Positions 31,776 through 63,903 are shown, counted from the first letter of the stretch. The stretch is 64,000 bases of DNA from Phycisphaerae bacterium (GCA_011050235.1 DRGC01000076.1:1-64000), one strand, 5' to 3'. Notes: a model not told the origin generated them from the letters alone. Program-made: numbers and translations.

Positions 31776-33512
31776 ATGATACGAATGACCATTATCGTTG
31801 CGTTATCGCTTTGCCTGGTCCAGGCCGGCCCGGCCCGCGCAGACGATGCCGCCGCCGAGGGCCCGCGGATCGTCAGCTTCTCTCCGGCGCTGACCCGCAT
31901 CCTGTTCGACATGAACCTCGGCCACCATGTCGTCGGCGTGACGCGTTTTTGCCGTCTTCCCGACGGCATCGAGCGTCCGCGGATCGGCGATGCGGAGACC
32001 ATCAGCGCCGAGACGATCCTGGCCGTTCGGCCGGACATCATCCTCACCCAGTCCTGGCCGGAGCGATTCCGCGGCGTTACCGACGCGGACTCACGGGTGA
32101 AGATCGTGGCGATCCCCATCGAACGGTTGGACGACGTGCCGGTTGCCATCGAACGGATCGGCGAGGTGGTCGGTCAACCTGAACTGGCTGCGGCGACGCG
32201 AGACGCTTTCCTCGCCCGTCTGGCCTCGGTTCGCCGAAGCGTAGCCGGCCGCGAGCCTGTGCGCGTGCTGTTCGTGATGGGGACGGATCGGCCAACCGCA
32301 TGTGGGCCGGATAATTTCATCCACGACCTGATCGAACTGGCTGGCGGCACGAATGCCGGGGCGGACGTTGCCGGTACGACGCCGTGGCGACCGACACACA
32401 TCGACGCCATTGTCGCGACGGCCCCGGACGTGATTGTCTGCTATGTCCCCGCCGCTCAGGCCGATCGGGCCCGGACGTATTGGCTTCAGTGGAGCAATCT
32501 ACCGGCGGCCCGGGCCGGACGCGTGGTTGTGATGACGGGCCCGGACTGGTTGCGACCGTCGATGCGCCTGGCCGAACTGGCCGCCGTGCTGGCCGAGAAG
32601 ATCCATCCGGATCTGGCCGGGGCGACGACTGCGGAGGTGTCCCTCTGGCGGGCCCGACTGCTGCGCTGGTTGGCGGCGGCGGTGGTCGGGGCGGGGTTGG
32701 CCATCGGCGGGATGGCGCTGCAGGGGCTGCTGCGGAACCCGTTGGCCGACCCGTACATTCTGGGCGTCTCCAGTGGAGCGGGCGTGGGGGTACTGCTTGG
32801 GATGGCGGCGGCGGCATCGTGGTCGGCGGTTCCGGAGTGGGCATCGACGCCGGCCCTGGCGTTCGTGGGAGCGATGGTGACCTGTGCGGTGGTCTATGCG
32901 CTGGCCCAGCGGGGCGGGCGGTTGGATCCGTACACGTTGATCCTGGCCGGCGTAATCGCCAACACCTTCAACGGGGCGATCCTGCTGGCCATCTATCTAT
33001 ACGTGGACGTCTACCGGATCGCTGAGTTCACACACTGGGCGATGGGGCGCCTGCCGGATTCGGTCGACGTGCGCTTGCTGATCATGTGTGGGGGCCTGGT
33101 CATTGTCGGCGGCTGCGCGCTGTTGTGGCAGGCAGCGGCGGCGAACGTGTTGACGCTGGGCGACCAGGTAGCCGCCAGCACGGGCGTGGCGGTCGGTCGG
33201 CTGCGGATCGTGACGTTCACGGCGGTGGGGCTGATGACGGCGGCAGCGGTGGCGCTGGCCGGGCCGATCGGCTTTGTGGGGCTGATCGTTCCACATATCT
33301 GCCGGATGATCGTCGGGCCCGATCAGCGGATCGGCTTGGTGACGTCAGCGGTGGCGGGGGCGGTGCTGCTGGTGCTGGCCGAGAGCCTCTGCCGATGGGT
33401 GGGGCCGATGGTCAACGTCAGCCTCGTGCCGGTGGGCATCTTGACGGCGCTGACGGGCGGGCCGTTCTTTGTGGTGCTGCTGCGGCGTCAGCGCGGGAGG
33501 GCGACGGTATGA
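31776..33512 (+). CDS. BtuF-BtuC fusion: cobalamin-type binding protein plus permease
   Basis: 578 aa single frame. Residues 1-23 are a signal/TM helix (MIRMTIIVALSLCLVQAG). About 29-280 form a periplasmic class III binding domain (PRIVSFSPALTRILFDM, VGVTRFCRLPDG, RPDIILTQSW, CGPDNFIHDLIELAGGTN). From about 290 the FecCD/BtuC permease follows (LLRWLAAAVVGAGLAIGGMA, then LLRNPLADPYILGVSSGAG, and later GPIGFVGLIVPHICRM with the coupling helix). The permease starts at the usual second TM helix; the first is absent, so the leader helix may take its place. Imports cobalamin or another chelate; assignment to B12 rests on the neighbouring riboswitch genes. Confidence 0.85.
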   Translation: MIRMTIIVALSLCLVQAGPARADDAAAEGPRIVSFSPALTRILFDMNLGHHVVGVTRFCRLPDGIERPRIGDAETISAETILAVRPDIILTQSWPERFRGVTDADSRVKIVAIPIERLDDVPVAIERIGEVVGQPELAAATRDAFLARLASVRRSVAGREPVRVLFVMGTDRPTACGPDNFIHDLIELAGGTNAGADVAGTTPWRPTHIDAIVATAPDVIVCYVPAAQADRARTYWLQWSNLPAARAGRVVVMTGPDWLRPSMRLAELAAVLAEKIHPDLAGATTAEVSLWRARLLRWLAAAVVGAGLAIGGMALQGLLRNPLADPYILGVSSGAGVGVLLGMAAAASWSAVPEWASTPALAFVGAMVTCAVVYALAQRGGRLDPYTLILAGVIANTFNGAILLAIYLYVDVYRIAEFTHWAMGRLPDSVDVRLLIMCGGLVIVGGCALLWQAAAANVLTLGDQVAASTGVAVGRLRIVTFTAVGLMTAAAVALAGPIGFVGLIVPHICRMIVGPDQRIGLVTSAVAGAVLLVLAESLCRWVGPMVNVSLVPVGILTALTGGPFFVVLLRRQRGRATV

Positions 33513-34300
33513 TCGACCCCGCCGATGCCATCCTCGTTGCCGACGACGTGCAGTTCGGCTATCGCGCGGATCAGCCGGTCCTGTGCGGCGTGAACATGAC
33601 GGTTCAACGGGGCCGATTTGTCTGCGTGTTGGGCCCCAACGGTTCGGGCAAGACGACGCTGCTTCGATGTCTGCTGGGCCAACTGACCCCCAGCGGCGGC
33701 GATATCCGTTTGAACGGCCGGGCGATCCGGAGTTATCGCCCGCGCGAACTGGCGCGGACGATGGCGTATGTGCCGCAATTACCCCAATCGGCCTTCAGCT
33801 TCACGGCGGGGGAGATCGTGCGGATGGGACGCCTCTCGCATACGGGCGTGCTGGGGTTGACGGGCGAAAATGATCGCAAGGTGGTCCAGCTGGCCATGGA
33901 GATGACCGAGACCACGGCGTTCGCCGACCGCGAGCTCGAGGAACTGTCCGGCGGGGAAAGCCAGCGGGTGATGATCGCCCGCGGCCTGGCCCAACAGCCC
34001 GGTGTGATCCTGCTGGACGAACCCACCAGCCACCTGGACGTGCGTCATCAGATAACGATTTACCGCATGATGGCCCGGCTGGCCCACGACTGGCAGATGG
34101 CGGTGGTGTGCGTCAGCCACGACGTGAACCTGGCGGGGCGGTTTGCGGATGAGCTGGTGTTGATGAAGGCCGGGCGCGTGCTGGCGGACGGCCCGCCGGG
34201 CGAGGTGATTCGGGCCGACGTGCTTTCGGCGGCGTATGATGTGTCTGTCGAACTGATCGAAACGGGCGACGACCAGGGCCCGATCATGCGAGCGCAATAA
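33509..34300 (+). CDS. ABC transporter ATPase (BtuD/FecE type)
   Basis: 263 aa from ATG 33509, overlapping the permease stop (ATGA) with GGAGGG upstream. Walker A GPNGSGKTTLL, Q-loop YVPQLPQSAFSF, signature LSGGESQRVMIARGLA, Walker B VILLDEPTSHLD, H-loop VCVSHD. Energises the upstream BtuFC-like permease in the inner membrane. Confidence 0.95.
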   Translation: MIDPADAILVADDVQFGYRADQPVLCGVNMTVQRGRFVCVLGPNGSGKTTLLRCLLGQLTPSGGDIRLNGRAIRSYRPRELARTMAYVPQLPQSAFSFTAGEIVRMGRLSHTGVLGLTGENDRKVVQLAMEMTETTAFADRELEELSGGESQRVMIARGLAQQPGVILLDEPTSHLDVRHQITIYRMMARLAHDWQMAVVCVSHDVNLAGRFADELVLMKAGRVLADGPPGEVIRADVLSAAYDVSVELIETGDDQGPIMRAQ

Positions 34301-36298: not shown

Positions 36299-36377
36299 GG
36301 GGCGGAGAAGAAATATTTTTCGATTTGTGCAAGAAGGGGGCTTGACCCGGCGGCGGCCGTTATGCTAGCGTCTGCTC

Positions 36378-36548
36378 GTCGCAGGTGTGTTCCCCTTGGG
36401 AGCCAAAAGGGAAGGCCGTGAAAGTCGGCCGCGGACGCGCCGCTGTGACCGGTGACGAACGCTGCAAAATGCCACTGCGTGAACGTGTGGTTCACGCGGG
36501 AAGGCGCAGCGGGAGAATGACCCGGAAGCCAGAAAACCTGCCTGCGAC
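36378..36548 (+). ncRNA. Cobalamin (B12) riboswitch aptamer
   Basis: P1 pairs GTCGCAGG (36378-36385) with CCTGCGAC (36541-36548). Conserved parts follow in order: GGGAGCCAAAAGGGAAG (from 36398), CGCCGCTGTGACCGG (from 36438), GCCACTG (36470-36476), GGGAAGG (36498-36504), and the B12 box AGCCAGAAAACCTGCCTGC (36527-36545). An upstream TTGACC (36342-36347) and TATGCT (36361-36366) may form the promoter, with a short 13-base spacer. Aptamers of this class bind adenosyl- or methyl-cobalamin. Confidence 0.93.
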
Positions 36549-36602
36549 CAACCTGGCTTGACCTCCGCGAGTCAATCGGTCGGCAGGACGAATGCATTTT
36601 CG

Positions 36603-36633
36603 GCCCTGACCTTTGCGGAGGTCGGGGCTTTTT
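36603..36633 (+). terminator. Riboswitch-controlled intrinsic terminator
   Basis: GCCCTGACCT, loop TTGCGG, AGGTCGGGGC then TTTTT. The 3' arm GCGGAGGTC (36615-36623) can also pair with GACCTCCGC (36560-36568) just after the aptamer, which would prevent the terminator: a candidate antiterminator. Confidence 0.8.
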
Positions 36634-36903
36634 CGTTGCTTGGTCGCGAGAACCAAGACGGCGCCTGAATCAGCACCGATCCTCTCGGCCCGCTCAGCAG
36701 CGAAACTCCCCCCAGGTTGCCGGTTGGTCCGCCTTGCGCCCGGGCGGCCGACCGAACCGGACGGGCACGATCGGAAGACAAAGAGAGGAGGCCGGATTCT
36801 GCAGGACGCAATGGTGCAGCGCACGGATGCGCAAAACGGTGAGGCCTGCGGGCCTCGAGAAAAGGAACTTATCTGGAATAGTGCAGTGAGGGAAGGACAA
36901 ACG
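36634..36903 (+). other. Long leader between riboswitch terminator and first gene
   Basis: 270 bases with no stop in the frame of the downstream gene but without a signal peptide or homology. I see no further structure except a purine-rich AGAGAGGAGG at about 36781-36790 that is not followed by a start codon. Confidence 0.4.
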
Positions 36904-37659
36904 ATGCGATACATAACAACAATTGCAGCAATCCTGTTTCTTGCAGGTGCAACCATGGCTGATGAGGCCACATTTGAAGAGATGCCTCTGGCGGCCGAGA
37001 GCTTTTTCAACGGCAGCGATAGCAGTGGCGATTTCTCCAGCGGCGGTTTTCAGTTCAACAACAACTATGACACGTTTTTCGGTTCGTGGGACGGCTGGGC
37101 CGTTTCCAACATCACCGACAACACCACGCCCGGCTGGGGCAACCAGTACAGCGCCATCCCCGGCAGCGGCGCCGGCGGCAGCAGCAATTACGGCGTGAGT
37201 TTCATCGGTTTCGCCGAGCCGCCGTCGGCTACATTGGGCGTTTCGCGTGTGATCGACGGAGCGTTCTTCAGCAACGCGACGTATGCCTACTTGTCGATGC
37301 TCAACGGCGATGCCTACGCCAAGAAGTTCGGCGGCGTCACCGGCGACGATGAAGACTGGTTCCTGTTGACGATCACAGGCTTCAACGGTGCGGTCGAAAC
37401 CGGCACGGTCGATTTCTACCTGGGCGACTTCCGGTTCGCCGACAACGGCCTGGACTACATCGTCGACGATTGGACGTGGGTGGACCTGACGTCCCTGCGC
37501 GCGGTCACGTCGCTGGAGTTTGCGCTGAGTTCGTCCGACGTGGGCGGGTTCGGCATGAACACCCCGGCCTATTTCGCGATGGATAACCTGGTCCCCGAGC
37601 CGGCGTCGATGGCGCTGCTGGCTGTTGGGGCGGCGGCGCTGCTTCGGCGGCGTCGATAG
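36904..37659 (+). CDS. DUF4465 PEP-CTERM protein under B12 riboswitch
   Basis: 251 aa from ATG 36904; GGGAAGGA is 7 bases before. Signal peptide 1-19 (MRYITTIAAILFLAGATMA). Residues about 22-225 match the DUF4465 pattern as I remember it: FEEMPLAAESFFNGS, a W-x-GWAVSNITDNTTPGWGNQYSA segment, SMLNGDAYAKKFGG, VDFYLGDFRF, YIVDDWTWVDLTSL and FALSSSDVGGFGMNTPAYFAMDNL. The PEP-CTERM tail is VPEPASMALLAVGAAALLRRRR. DUF4465 proteins occur in cobalamin-uptake loci of Bacteroidetes. Likely a surface cobalamin-binding protein, by inference from family and riboswitch. Confidence 0.82.
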   Translation: MRYITTIAAILFLAGATMADEATFEEMPLAAESFFNGSDSSGDFSSGGFQFNNNYDTFFGSWDGWAVSNITDNTTPGWGNQYSAIPGSGAGGSSNYGVSFIGFAEPPSATLGVSRVIDGAFFSNATYAYLSMLNGDAYAKKFGGVTGDDEDWFLLTITGFNGAVETGTVDFYLGDFRFADNGLDYIVDDWTWVDLTSLRAVTSLEFALSSSDVGGFGMNTPAYFAMDNLVPEPASMALLAVGAAALLRRRR

Positions 37660-37679
37660 ACGCTTGAATGCGGGCAGGT

Positions 37680-37706
37680 GGGAGCGACGGCGCGGTCGTC
37701 GCTCCC
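37680..37706 (+). repeat. Intercistronic hairpin
   Basis: GGGAGCGACG (37680-37689) and CGTCGCTCCC (37697-37706) form a perfect 10-bp stem. No T-run follows, so it is more likely an mRNA processing or stability element than a terminator. Confidence 0.6.
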
Positions 37707-37737
37707 ATCCCCGCCCGCCGCAACAAGGAGTATGTCC

Positions 37738-39087
37738 ATGATGACGGGCAAGAAAAGAGTCGCAGTACACAGATGGACAACGCTGCTGGCGCTGACGGCT
37801 GTGCTGAGCGGCGGGGCCGTCGCCTGGGCCGGGCCCTATTCGCAGGCGGGCAACGATCCGACGAATCCATTCGACCCGCCCATCGCGGGCTTTGTGGGCC
37901 CCAACGGCGATGGCGACGCCACGGCCCCGAACTATGTGAACCCGGAGTTTCTGGGCTGGGCGAGCGGCTTTGTCGACTACCTGCCGGCGTCGCTCGGAAA
38001 TGATCTGATCAATCCGGGCGCGGACTGGGCTCAGCCGTCCCGGGCGCTCGGGCCCGTGACGGCCGACCAGATGGATGCGGTTTCGCTCGGCGAACTCTAC
38101 GATCCTGCCGCGCCACCGCCGCCCTCATGGGTCCCAGACCCTGATTGGATTGGAATCGACGATCCCGGTGAGATCACACTGACCTTCGACTTACCGATCC
38201 GCAACGGCGTGGGGGCGGACCTCGCGGTCTTTGAAAACGGGTTCACCAACGACGTGGGCGGTAGTTTCTTCGCCGAGCTGGCCTACGTGGACGTCTCGTC
38301 GGACGGCGTGAACTTCGCGCGTTTTGCCGGCGACTCACAGACCCCCGGGCCGGTGGGTTCGTTCGGATCGATCGATCCCACCAACGTGTACAACCTTGCC
38401 GGCAAACATAGCAACGGCTACACGCAATCCTGGGGCACGCCGTTCGATCTGGGCGAGCTGGCCGACCACGCGCTGGTCGTCGGCGGCCTGTTGGACCTCA
38501 CGGCGGTCCAGTTCGTCCGCATCGTGGATATTCCGGGCAACGGCGCTTTTGCCGATGACGACGGTGATCCGATCTATGACGCATGGGCGACGTTGGGTTC
38601 GGGCGGATTCGATCTGCAGGCCGTCGGTGTGCTGAACGAAGTGCCCGACTTCGACGGAGACGGTTTCGTTAATGCCGACGATATCGATCTGCTCAGCGCC
38701 GCCATTCGGGCCGCCAGCACCGATTTGCGCTACGACCTCAACAACGACGGCGTGGTCGACGGCGACGACCTGACGACCATGGTGGAAACGTGCGTCGAGA
38801 CCACCGTCGGGATCGGGACGGCCCCGGGAGACTTCAACCTCGACGGCCTGATCGACGGGACCGACCTGGCCATCATGAAGACGCATTTCGGCGATTTAGG
38901 CGCCGGATGGGCCGACGGAAACGCCAATTTTGATGAGTTGATCGACGGGACTGACCTGGCTTTGCTGAAGACGTATTTTGGCTTCGATGCCACCGCCGGC
39001 GGGACGGTTCCCGAACCGGCGACGCTTGGTCTGCTGGCTGTGGGCGCCGCAGCGGCGATTGCCCGCCGCCACAGACGACGCAAGTAG
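37738..39087 (+). CDS. Surface protein of B12-locus type with dockerin-like repeats and PEP-CTERM
   Basis: 449 aa; AAGGAG is 7 bases before ATG 37738. Signal peptide about 1-31 (cut after AWA). Residues about 32-298 carry GWASGFVDYLPA, ALGPVTADQMDAVSLG, ITLTFDLPIRNGVGADLAVFENGF, AYVDVSSDGVNFARF, YNLAGKH, FVRIVDIPGNG, and GSGGFDLQAVGVLNEV, the pattern of surface proteins found beside cobalamin transporters and B12 riboswitches in other phyla (from memory). Then three EF-hand/dockerin-like units (about 303, 364, 398) and VPEPATLGLLAVGAAAAIARRHRRR. Probably displays a cobalamin-related binding domain at the cell surface; ligand unproven. Confidence 0.8.
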   Translation: MMTGKKRVAVHRWTTLLALTAVLSGGAVAWAGPYSQAGNDPTNPFDPPIAGFVGPNGDGDATAPNYVNPEFLGWASGFVDYLPASLGNDLINPGADWAQPSRALGPVTADQMDAVSLGELYDPAAPPPPSWVPDPDWIGIDDPGEITLTFDLPIRNGVGADLAVFENGFTNDVGGSFFAELAYVDVSSDGVNFARFAGDSQTPGPVGSFGSIDPTNVYNLAGKHSNGYTQSWGTPFDLGELADHALVVGGLLDLTAVQFVRIVDIPGNGAFADDDGDPIYDAWATLGSGGFDLQAVGVLNEVPDFDGDGFVNADDIDLLSAAIRAASTDLRYDLNNDGVVDGDDLTTMVETCVETTVGIGTAPGDFNLDGLIDGTDLAIMKTHFGDLGAGWADGNANFDELIDGTDLALLKTYFGFDATAGGTVPEPATLGLLAVGAAAAIARRHRRRK

Positions 39088-39157
39088 AAACCCGGCAGGA
39101 CGGGGCCCGGGTCATTGTCATGCCGGCCCGGGCCTCCGTCCGCATTATCGAATAGAT

Positions 39158-39961
39158 ATGACCGGATGTCGCACAAATCGATTGCGTGGGTTCACGCTCC
39201 TGGAGTTGATGATCGTCGTGTCCATCATCGCGGTGCTGACGACGATGCTGCTGCCCGCGTTGGGGCGAGCCAAGGAGCTTGCCCGCAACGCCGTGTGCAA
39301 GGTCAACATCCGCCACCTGGCGCTGGCCAACCACCTATACGCCGAGGAGAACAATGAGCACTTCGTGCTGGCGGGTGAGGATATGCTGCACCGCTGGCAT
39401 GCACCGCGGCCAACGATCAACGATCCGTTCGATCCCAACAAAGGTCCGTTGGCAACGTACCTGCCCCACGGAGGGATCAAGGAGTGCCCGTCGTTTCGGG
39501 ATTTCATCACCTCGCCAGGGGCGTCGGCCGCTTTCGAAGCCGGCTCGGGCGGGTACGGCTATAACGACACCTACATAGGCGGCCGATCGGACGCATACCC
39601 GTTCATGGAGGCGCCCAAGCACAGCGCCCGCATCACCGATGTAGGATCGGCCGGCGAAACAGTGATGTTCACCGATGCGGCGATGATCAAGCCGTCCGGC
39701 CTGATCGAGTATTCGTTCTGCCATCCACCGTACTGGGTCCTGCCGGGCATGCCGCCCAACACGCTGACCAGCGACCCGGTGATCCACTTCCGACATTTGG
39801 GCGGCTGCAATGTCGCCTGGGCTGATTCCCACGTCAGTGAAGAGCGGCTGTCATTCAGCTTCGCGTACAAGACGGACGCGAGTGTGACGGCGGAGGTCGC
39901 CAAGGAAAAAGGCTTTGGCTGGTTCGGGCCTCAGTCCAACGAGCTGTTTGATCTTGAGTAG
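39158..39961 (+). CDS. Prepilin-type pseudopilin of the planctomycete kind
   Basis: 267 aa from ATG 39158. The N-terminal prepilin signal is RGFTLLELMIVVSIIAVLTTMLLPAL, cut after Gly with Phe+1 and Glu+5. The C-terminal globular part ends with HFRHLGGCNVAWADSHVSEE, an equivalent of the H-X9-DG motif. Such proteins are numerous in planctomycetes and probably assemble into surface fibres or type II secretion pseudopili. It lies 70 bases after the B12-locus surface protein and may share its transcript; alternatively it is an unrelated neighbour. Confidence 0.85.
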   Translation: MTGCRTNRLRGFTLLELMIVVSIIAVLTTMLLPALGRAKELARNAVCKVNIRHLALANHLYAEENNEHFVLAGEDMLHRWHAPRPTINDPFDPNKGPLATYLPHGGIKECPSFRDFITSPGASAAFEAGSGGYGYNDTYIGGRSDAYPFMEAPKHSARITDVGSAGETVMFTDAAMIKPSGLIEYSFCHPPYWVLPGMPPNTLTSDPVIHFRHLGGCNVAWADSHVSEERLSFSFAYKTDASVTAEVAKEKGFGWFGPQSNELFDLE

Positions 39962-63582: not shown

Positions 63583-63903
63583 TCAACTGCTGAATCCTCA
63601 CCGACCGGCTGCGATCGGTCAATCACTGTCGCCCCTTCGGGGCTCTTGTCCTGTGAGGCTCCTTTTCCGGGGGCTGACGCCCCCGGCTATTCACTTCCGG
63701 CCCGTCGGGCCTTTGTCGGTGCTGCTTTCAGCGGCCGTCTGTGATTCGATGCACCATCCGTTCTCTCGAACGGGACCGGGTGTATCTGGCCCCTCCCGAG
63801 CTGGTGCGGGTGTATCTGGCCCCGAAGGGGCCCAGGTGAGTAGCCGGGGGCGTTAGCCCCCGGGCCAAGGAGCCAAGAGGGCTCAGCCCCGAAGGGGCGG
63901 TAG
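63583..63903. repeat. REP-like cluster (two inverted REPs)
   Basis: 321 bases without a gene. Symmetric order: GCCCC-TTC-GGGGC (63631-63643), CCGGGGGC-TGAC-GCCCCCGG (63667-63686), then CCGGGGGC-GTTA-GCCCCCGG (63844-63863), GCCCC-GAA-GGGGC (63886-63898). Inside is a 17-bp direct repeat CGGGTGTATCTGGCCCC at 63777-63793 and 63807-63823. It adjoins a REP-associated transposase end. Confidence 0.85.

Follow-up and report, generated by a model that had tools for sequence, protein, structure and literature searches.

A cobalamin riboswitch operon of a Phycisphaerae bacterium pairs predicted B12-capture proteins with a conserved prepilin-like protein

High-affinity uptake of B12 through the outer membrane is known via TonB-dependent receptors. 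The locus described here lies in a 64,000-nucleotide stretch of a Phycisphaerae bacterium (GCA_011050235.1, DRGC01000076.1:1-64000; referred to below as the window) and joins a cobalamin riboswitch with genes for surface proteins, which raises the question by which route B12 would enter this cell and which genes of the operon take part. The first-pass annotation of the window had placed the unit at 36378-39087 and had described a scheme of B12-regulated surface capture. The aptamer and the two protein genes of that interval are real, and their reading as a B12-regulated capture system is supported; however, the interval begins 12 nt into the aptamer and omits a co-directional pseudopilin gene (39158-39961), which was thus left out of a scheme that also had no outer-membrane step.

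The riboswitch and the two surface proteins

The aptamer (36366-36559, plus strand) matches the Rfam covariance model RF00174 over its full length (1-189) with 113.3 bits (E 1.3e-27) against a gathering score of 31.5, which assigns it to the cobalamin riboswitches, and it represents the only RF00174 match in the 4.01-Mb assembly. It is followed on the same strand by an expression platform (36560-36645) with an intrinsic terminator, composed of a stem (36602-36629) and a T-run; the fold of this segment is stable (-36.5 kcal/mol, z -2.7 versus shuffles). The complete aptamer and terminator read in the first pass, for which an Infernal comparison with Rfam had been advised, are therefore upheld, and regulation of the operon by B12, as predicted from the riboswitch and terminator, is likely. 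Two strong intergenic hairpins without a T-run, both on the plus strand, separate the three genes (37660-37735, -44 kcal/mol, z -4.3; 39088-39157, -37.7 kcal/mol, z -3.6) and possibly serve differential expression or mRNA processing.

The first gene (36904-37659, plus strand) encodes a DUF4465 (BtuJ-type) protein with a signal peptide and a PEP-CTERM tail (8.7e-6). Its match to PF14717 (4.9e-53; 180.5 bits versus a cut-off of 25) makes it a clear member of the DUF4465 family (IPR027828; Clarke et al. 2026, PMC13398666), and the B12-loop motif of the family is conserved as NTPAYF at residues 219-224, where it aligns with the structures 9hmu, 9qpm and 9fct; 9hmu, a B12-bound Coraliomargarita structure, is matched with 2.2e-32. 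DUF4465 has already been published as a B12-binding family (PMC12751083 and passages of PMC13398666): according to those passages, eight divergent members, including one from the planctomycete Mucisphaera, bind B12, and the conserved HI-loop NTPAY motif carries the B12-binding tyrosine. In Bacteroides the family is represented by BtuJ1 and BtuJ2, and in B. thetaiotaomicron B12 is carried on vesicles by such BtuJ proteins (PMC12751083). PEP-CTERM, the tail of the present protein, is not mentioned in the main text of PMC13398666, and the passages drawn on here describe neither planctomycete riboswitch operons nor a pilin, both of which are present here.

The second gene (37738-39087, plus strand) encodes a protein with dockerin type I repeats and a PEP-CTERM tail, of which residues 1-330 gave no Pfam match. 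An AlphaFold model of this protein (pLDDT 81), built from an alignment of 39 relatives, was compared with 976 re-aligned solved chains (VIA-align), and the two top-ranked chains were the two structures among them that hold the BtuH domain: BtuH2 (7biz; Z 12.0, rmsd 3.4 over 167 residues, 18% identity) and 8blw_B (BtuG1/BtuGH; Z 11.4, rmsd 3.4 over 173 residues), followed in third place by PAPP-A (Z 9.8). Foldseek likewise returned 8blw_B (2.6e-5) as the only match under 0.001, and the profile match to this chain is weak (E 0.0026, or 0.055 with a trimmed profile). The predicted fold, matched over the ectodomain, agrees with the earlier assignment of this gene to a type of surface protein found in B12-uptake loci of other phyla, and the protein is probably BtuH-like. 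In BtuH2 the B12-binding part is the C-terminal domain (PMC8941943), and the N and F of the FENGF stretch of the second protein may be candidates for its Asn399 and Phe401. Binding of B12 by both the DUF4465 and the BtuH-like protein is likely.

Both proteins score above the cut-off of PF07589 and the genome encodes an exosortase (PF09721, E 3.7e-55), in line with the PEP-CTERM anchors, including that of the DUF4465 protein behind the riboswitch, that had been seen before; no lipobox cysteine was seen in their N-termini. These tails bear on the possibility that the capture proteins act as binders that are released or sit on shed vesicles, with the pilin aiding a vesicle or surface function, as has been proposed for Bacteroides BtuJ with B12 carried on vesicles (PMC12751083). 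We regard this as very unlikely, since the PEP-CTERM tails imply anchoring, and since loaded vesicles would still need a route of entry through the outer membrane.

The unit resembles the Btu loci of B. thetaiotaomicron (BtuJ, BtuH, BtuG, BtuK, BtuB and BtuFCD) by its cobalamin riboswitch, its DUF4465 and BtuH-fold proteins and a BtuFCD importer nearby, and related operons of the class further share beta-propeller proteins with those loci. In contrast to the Bacteroides loci, where the anchors are those of lipoproteins, PEP-CTERM tails are found here, and a pseudopilin is part of the unit, while no TonB receptor was found.

A prepilin-like gene behind the cobalamin riboswitches of the class

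The third gene (39158-39961, plus strand), the constant gene of the unit, encodes a prepilin-like H-X9-DG protein with the C-terminus GWFGPQSNELFDLE. Its N-terminal methylation motif and its H-X9-DG segment score above the cut-offs of TIGR02532 (26.6 versus 16.3) and TIGR04294 (20 versus 19), it also matches PF07963 (3.5e-7), and its model (pLDDT 93.9) displays a long N-terminal helix and a globular domain. A structure search with this model gave generic pilins only (PilA4, Z 5.5), a result that excludes no family. With its prepilin N-terminus, H-X9-DG-type segment and pilin-like model the protein is similar to H-X9-DG and type IV prepilin-like proteins (TIGR04294, TIGR02532). Unlike these proteins in general, it belongs to a distinct orthologue group that is highly conserved and linked to cobalamin riboswitches, and in which the stretches RW-R, GGYGYN, HFRH and GWFGP are invariant or nearly so, and it possesses a large globular domain for which no resembling solved structure was found among the matches seen. 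The genome holds 21 prepilin-like matches, and a search of it with this protein recovered the protein itself (626 bits), a next match of 82 bits and no second close match.

Loci were drawn from 397 genomes of the class, selected either by DUF4465 or by a cobalamin riboswitch, the latter being the best-scoring aptamers among those listed. Only aptamers followed by at least 4.5 kb of sequence were counted, and a pilin was scored when it lay within 8 kb on the strand of the aptamer; Rfam was used for these counts instead of a quick motif regex, which missed most aptamers of the class. The pilin was found behind the aptamer in 87 of the 97 loci of this combined set, that is in 31/33 DUF4465-selected loci and in 56/64 riboswitch-selected loci (best-scoring aptamers among those listed), fractions that describe one lineage rather than independent events, because the loci share ancestry. 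Conversely, when named genomes were scanned with the pilin alignment as query, 80 loci were obtained, and an aptamer was located upstream of the pilin in 21 of the 23 pilin-selected loci tested with Rfam. Among these are loci of the cultured planctomycetes ZRK34 (CP050848; L188, with aptamer, BtuH-like gene and pilin) and ZRK32 (CP066225; L192) and of MAGs labelled Armatimonadota and Hydrogenedens. No other gene behind the cobalamin riboswitches of the class is as constant as the pilin. Around 116 aptamers, the pilin family had no hit on the opposite strand and two upstream; on this and on the gap between 626 and 82 bits, chance proximity of a common pilin was rejected.

The loci without a pilin fall into several types. 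The first gene is nrdD-like in four of them (L154, L160, L161 and L163; Pfam-confirmed for L154), metE was confirmed in L160, and L099 and L100 carry riboswitch-linked TonB receptors; as nrdD, metE and TonB receptors are typical B12-regulated genes, these loci argue that their aptamers are working riboswitches. L036 contains ambiguous bases and L050 is N-masked behind its BtuH-like gene, and both count as pilin-less. No pilin was found in L101 and L129, where the surface proteins are present, nor in L098, which is not accounted for by the known exception types.

The genes for DUF4465 and BtuH-like proteins are frequent but variable partners of the pilin, and are fused in several loci; away from the DUF4465 loci, many BtuH-like calls are weak, at 30-50 bits. 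Fusions of DUF4465 and a BtuH-like part in one protein occur in L038, L064, L069 and several named loci (e.g. L186, L194 and L201), L187, L222 and L242 score as double DUF4465, and in L175 a BtuH-like part and the pilin are read in one frame. Riboswitch operons without DUF4465 contain beta-propellers (PQQ/BamB-, YncE- or NHL-like) reminiscent of BtuG and BtuK (L106, 4961-6775; L149, 2412-3974; L118, 6516-7616; L084, 3958-5214). At ten loci (L041, L047, L186, L189, L190, L193, L194, L196, L222 and L252) the gene directly behind the pilin encodes a PP-loop ATPase that belongs to the diphthamide synthase family (PF01902, as tested on L041). Acido-Lenti-1 RNA is present at 63667-63712 of the window and also in L035 (10519-11098), where six copies lie near the DUF4465 operon.

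In five loci (L037, L040, L104, L158 and L231) the pilin is closely followed by genes for BtuF, BtuD and BtuC, and hence stands after the capture proteins and before the importer, a place in which one might look for a receptor gene. This arrangement touches on the suggestion that starved cells respond by sticking to B12-producing partners or particles instead of importing B12 by this route. Pilins are common adhesins, and PEP-CTERM and dockerin tails typically occur on proteins of the envelope and matrix, so that such an attachment response is conceivable; we give it a small chance, as the neighbours of the pilin are B12-binding families and, in these five operons, a BtuFDC importer.

Importer, receptor search and relation to TonB-dependent uptake

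Upstream of the riboswitch, on the plus strand, the window encodes a BtuF-BtuC fusion (31776-33512; PF01497 6.7e-13, PF01032 4.3e-73) and a BtuD-like ABC ATPase (33506-34300; PF00005 2e-31). The best NCBIfam match of the fusion is BtuC (1.4e-62; 212 bits, below the cut-off of 461) and that of the ATPase is the corrinoid ABC ATPase NF007082 (1.1e-75; 255 bits, below the cut-off of 537). The BtuFC-BtuD importer that the first-pass annotation placed 2 kb upstream is thus present as fusion and ATPase, 2.1 kb before the aptamer, but its matches stay below the curated BtuC and BtuD cut-offs; for that reason we describe 31776-34300 as a BtuFCD-like inner-membrane importer, named by context, whose substrate would be B12. 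The joining of Peripla_BP_2 and FecCD in one 578-aa polypeptide (window 31776-33512) is also seen in L033 (4002-5846), while BtuF and BtuC are separate in L037, L040, L104, L158 and L231.

The lack of a recognised BtuB in the window is matched by a lack of plug-domain hits in the genome: a search restricted to the TonB plug domain (PF07715), with positive controls, gave no match in the assembly (4.01 Mb, 98 contigs). Since this assembly is 95.5% complete, the lack of a plug receptor is likely rather than certain. The ExbBD part of the genome-wide check proposed in the first pass returned ExbD/TolR-type genes. Thirteen matches to B12-binding domains were found, some of them in radical-SAM proteins and one a corrinoid-protein-like ORF read from the sequence of this genome; a search of the same genome for CbiC was negative. 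As neither a plug domain nor CbiC was found while B12-domain proteins are present, this bacterium is likely a B12 scavenger without BtuB. The locus shares with proteobacterial BtuB-TonB uptake the scheme of a riboswitch-controlled outer-membrane step followed by BtuFCD, and the class itself includes L099 and L100 with their riboswitch-linked TonB receptors; it differs in that no plug-domain receptor was found in this genome.

A plug domain was found in 166 of the 397 class genomes and none was seen in 231. The pilin is present in 51/55 riboswitch loci from plug-negative genomes and in 36/42 from plug-positive ones, and the latter figure indicates that the operon is compatible with TonB receptors in general. 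The term TonB-independent, as used in the first pass, therefore has support in this genome alone, in which no plug domain was found, and the pilin operon, occurring in both kinds of genomes, is no simple substitute for TonB receptors everywhere. DUF4465 and the plug domain co-occur in 35/64 genomes, which amounts to a weakly positive association with an odds ratio of 1.9 (p 0.03), and DUF4465 as a general replacement of TonB receptors was rejected on these figures.

The same counts weigh on a more conventional explanation, namely that a TonB-dependent BtuB is missing from the draft and that, as in Bacteroides, the operon serves only to supply it. The incompleteness and the number of contigs of the assembly, its ExbD/TolR-type genes and the receptors of L099 and L100 would fit a missed BtuB. 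We nevertheless find it improbable, given that the plug search was negative in this genome and in 231 of the 397 genomes of the class, and that the pilin accompanies nearly all riboswitch loci of the plug-negative genomes.

Possible roles of the pilin in B12 acquisition

We consider it quite likely that the pilin takes part in B12 acquisition, and fairly likely that the operon as a whole is a B12-salvage unit with the pilin as a working part, a judgement that leaves the step of membrane crossing aside. The following order of events is proposed. When B12 is scarce, the riboswitch would let transcription continue past the terminator, and the DUF4465 and BtuH-like proteins, which PEP-CTERM sorting would keep at the envelope, would bind cobamides outside. 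A prepilin peptidase would cleave the pilin-like protein, a type II secretion/type IV pilus machine would assemble a pseudopilus, the pilin-like protein would move B12 or the loaded carrier across the outer membrane via a secretin, and the neighbouring BtuFCD importer would bring B12 into the cytoplasm.

That the pilin itself performs the outer-membrane step is put forward tentatively, and a role in export or display is nearly as likely; the data fit both. Pseudopilins classically work in type II secretion, and in the principal alternative the pseudopilin would be a cargo-specific helper that exports or displays the capture proteins by this system, B12 crossing by another channel. The position of the pilin, which is usually behind genes for exported PEP-CTERM or dockerin proteins, agrees with such a helper, and so do the five secretins and many T2SSE (T2SS/T4P) ATPases of this genome; the number of its prepilin-like matches indicates that such proteins are numerous and may serve export rather than import. 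Against such a helper, neither an exported protein nor any other gene was found to intervene between the aptamer and the pilin in L102 and L155, the pilin is the first gene in L210 and L214, and one conserved pilin goes with several unrelated surface proteins (DUF4465, BtuH-like and beta-propellers).

The furthest-reaching version of uptake by the pilin, in which a riboswitch-controlled pseudopilin replaces the TonB receptor, with a dynamic pseudopilus delivering B12, or a capture protein loaded with it, to BtuF by way of a secretin, is doubtful, and this applies equally to the use of such a system across the planctomycete class, and perhaps in other phyla, which forms part of it. Bacteria of the class may nonetheless take up B12 by an undescribed route, a suggestion that rests on the lack of a recognised standard receptor here and on the pairing of sensor and pilin across the class.

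The riboswitch and the binding of B12 by DUF4465 and BtuH proteins were already known. The class-wide tie of the cobalamin riboswitch with one pilin orthologue group is new within the literature searched, a body of text that leaves out most subscription journals and in which cobalamin riboswitch and prepilin were not found together. Many genomes of the class, with no plug domain seen, have kept a cobalamin riboswitch that mostly drives an operon with the conserved pilin. Should the pilin take part in uptake, machines of the pilus type would gain a role in nutrient import; should it serve export, a cargo-matched pseudopilin would stand under the control of a vitamin. Either way, a large orthologue group of so far unassigned pilins gains a concrete context that is testable in cultured strains.
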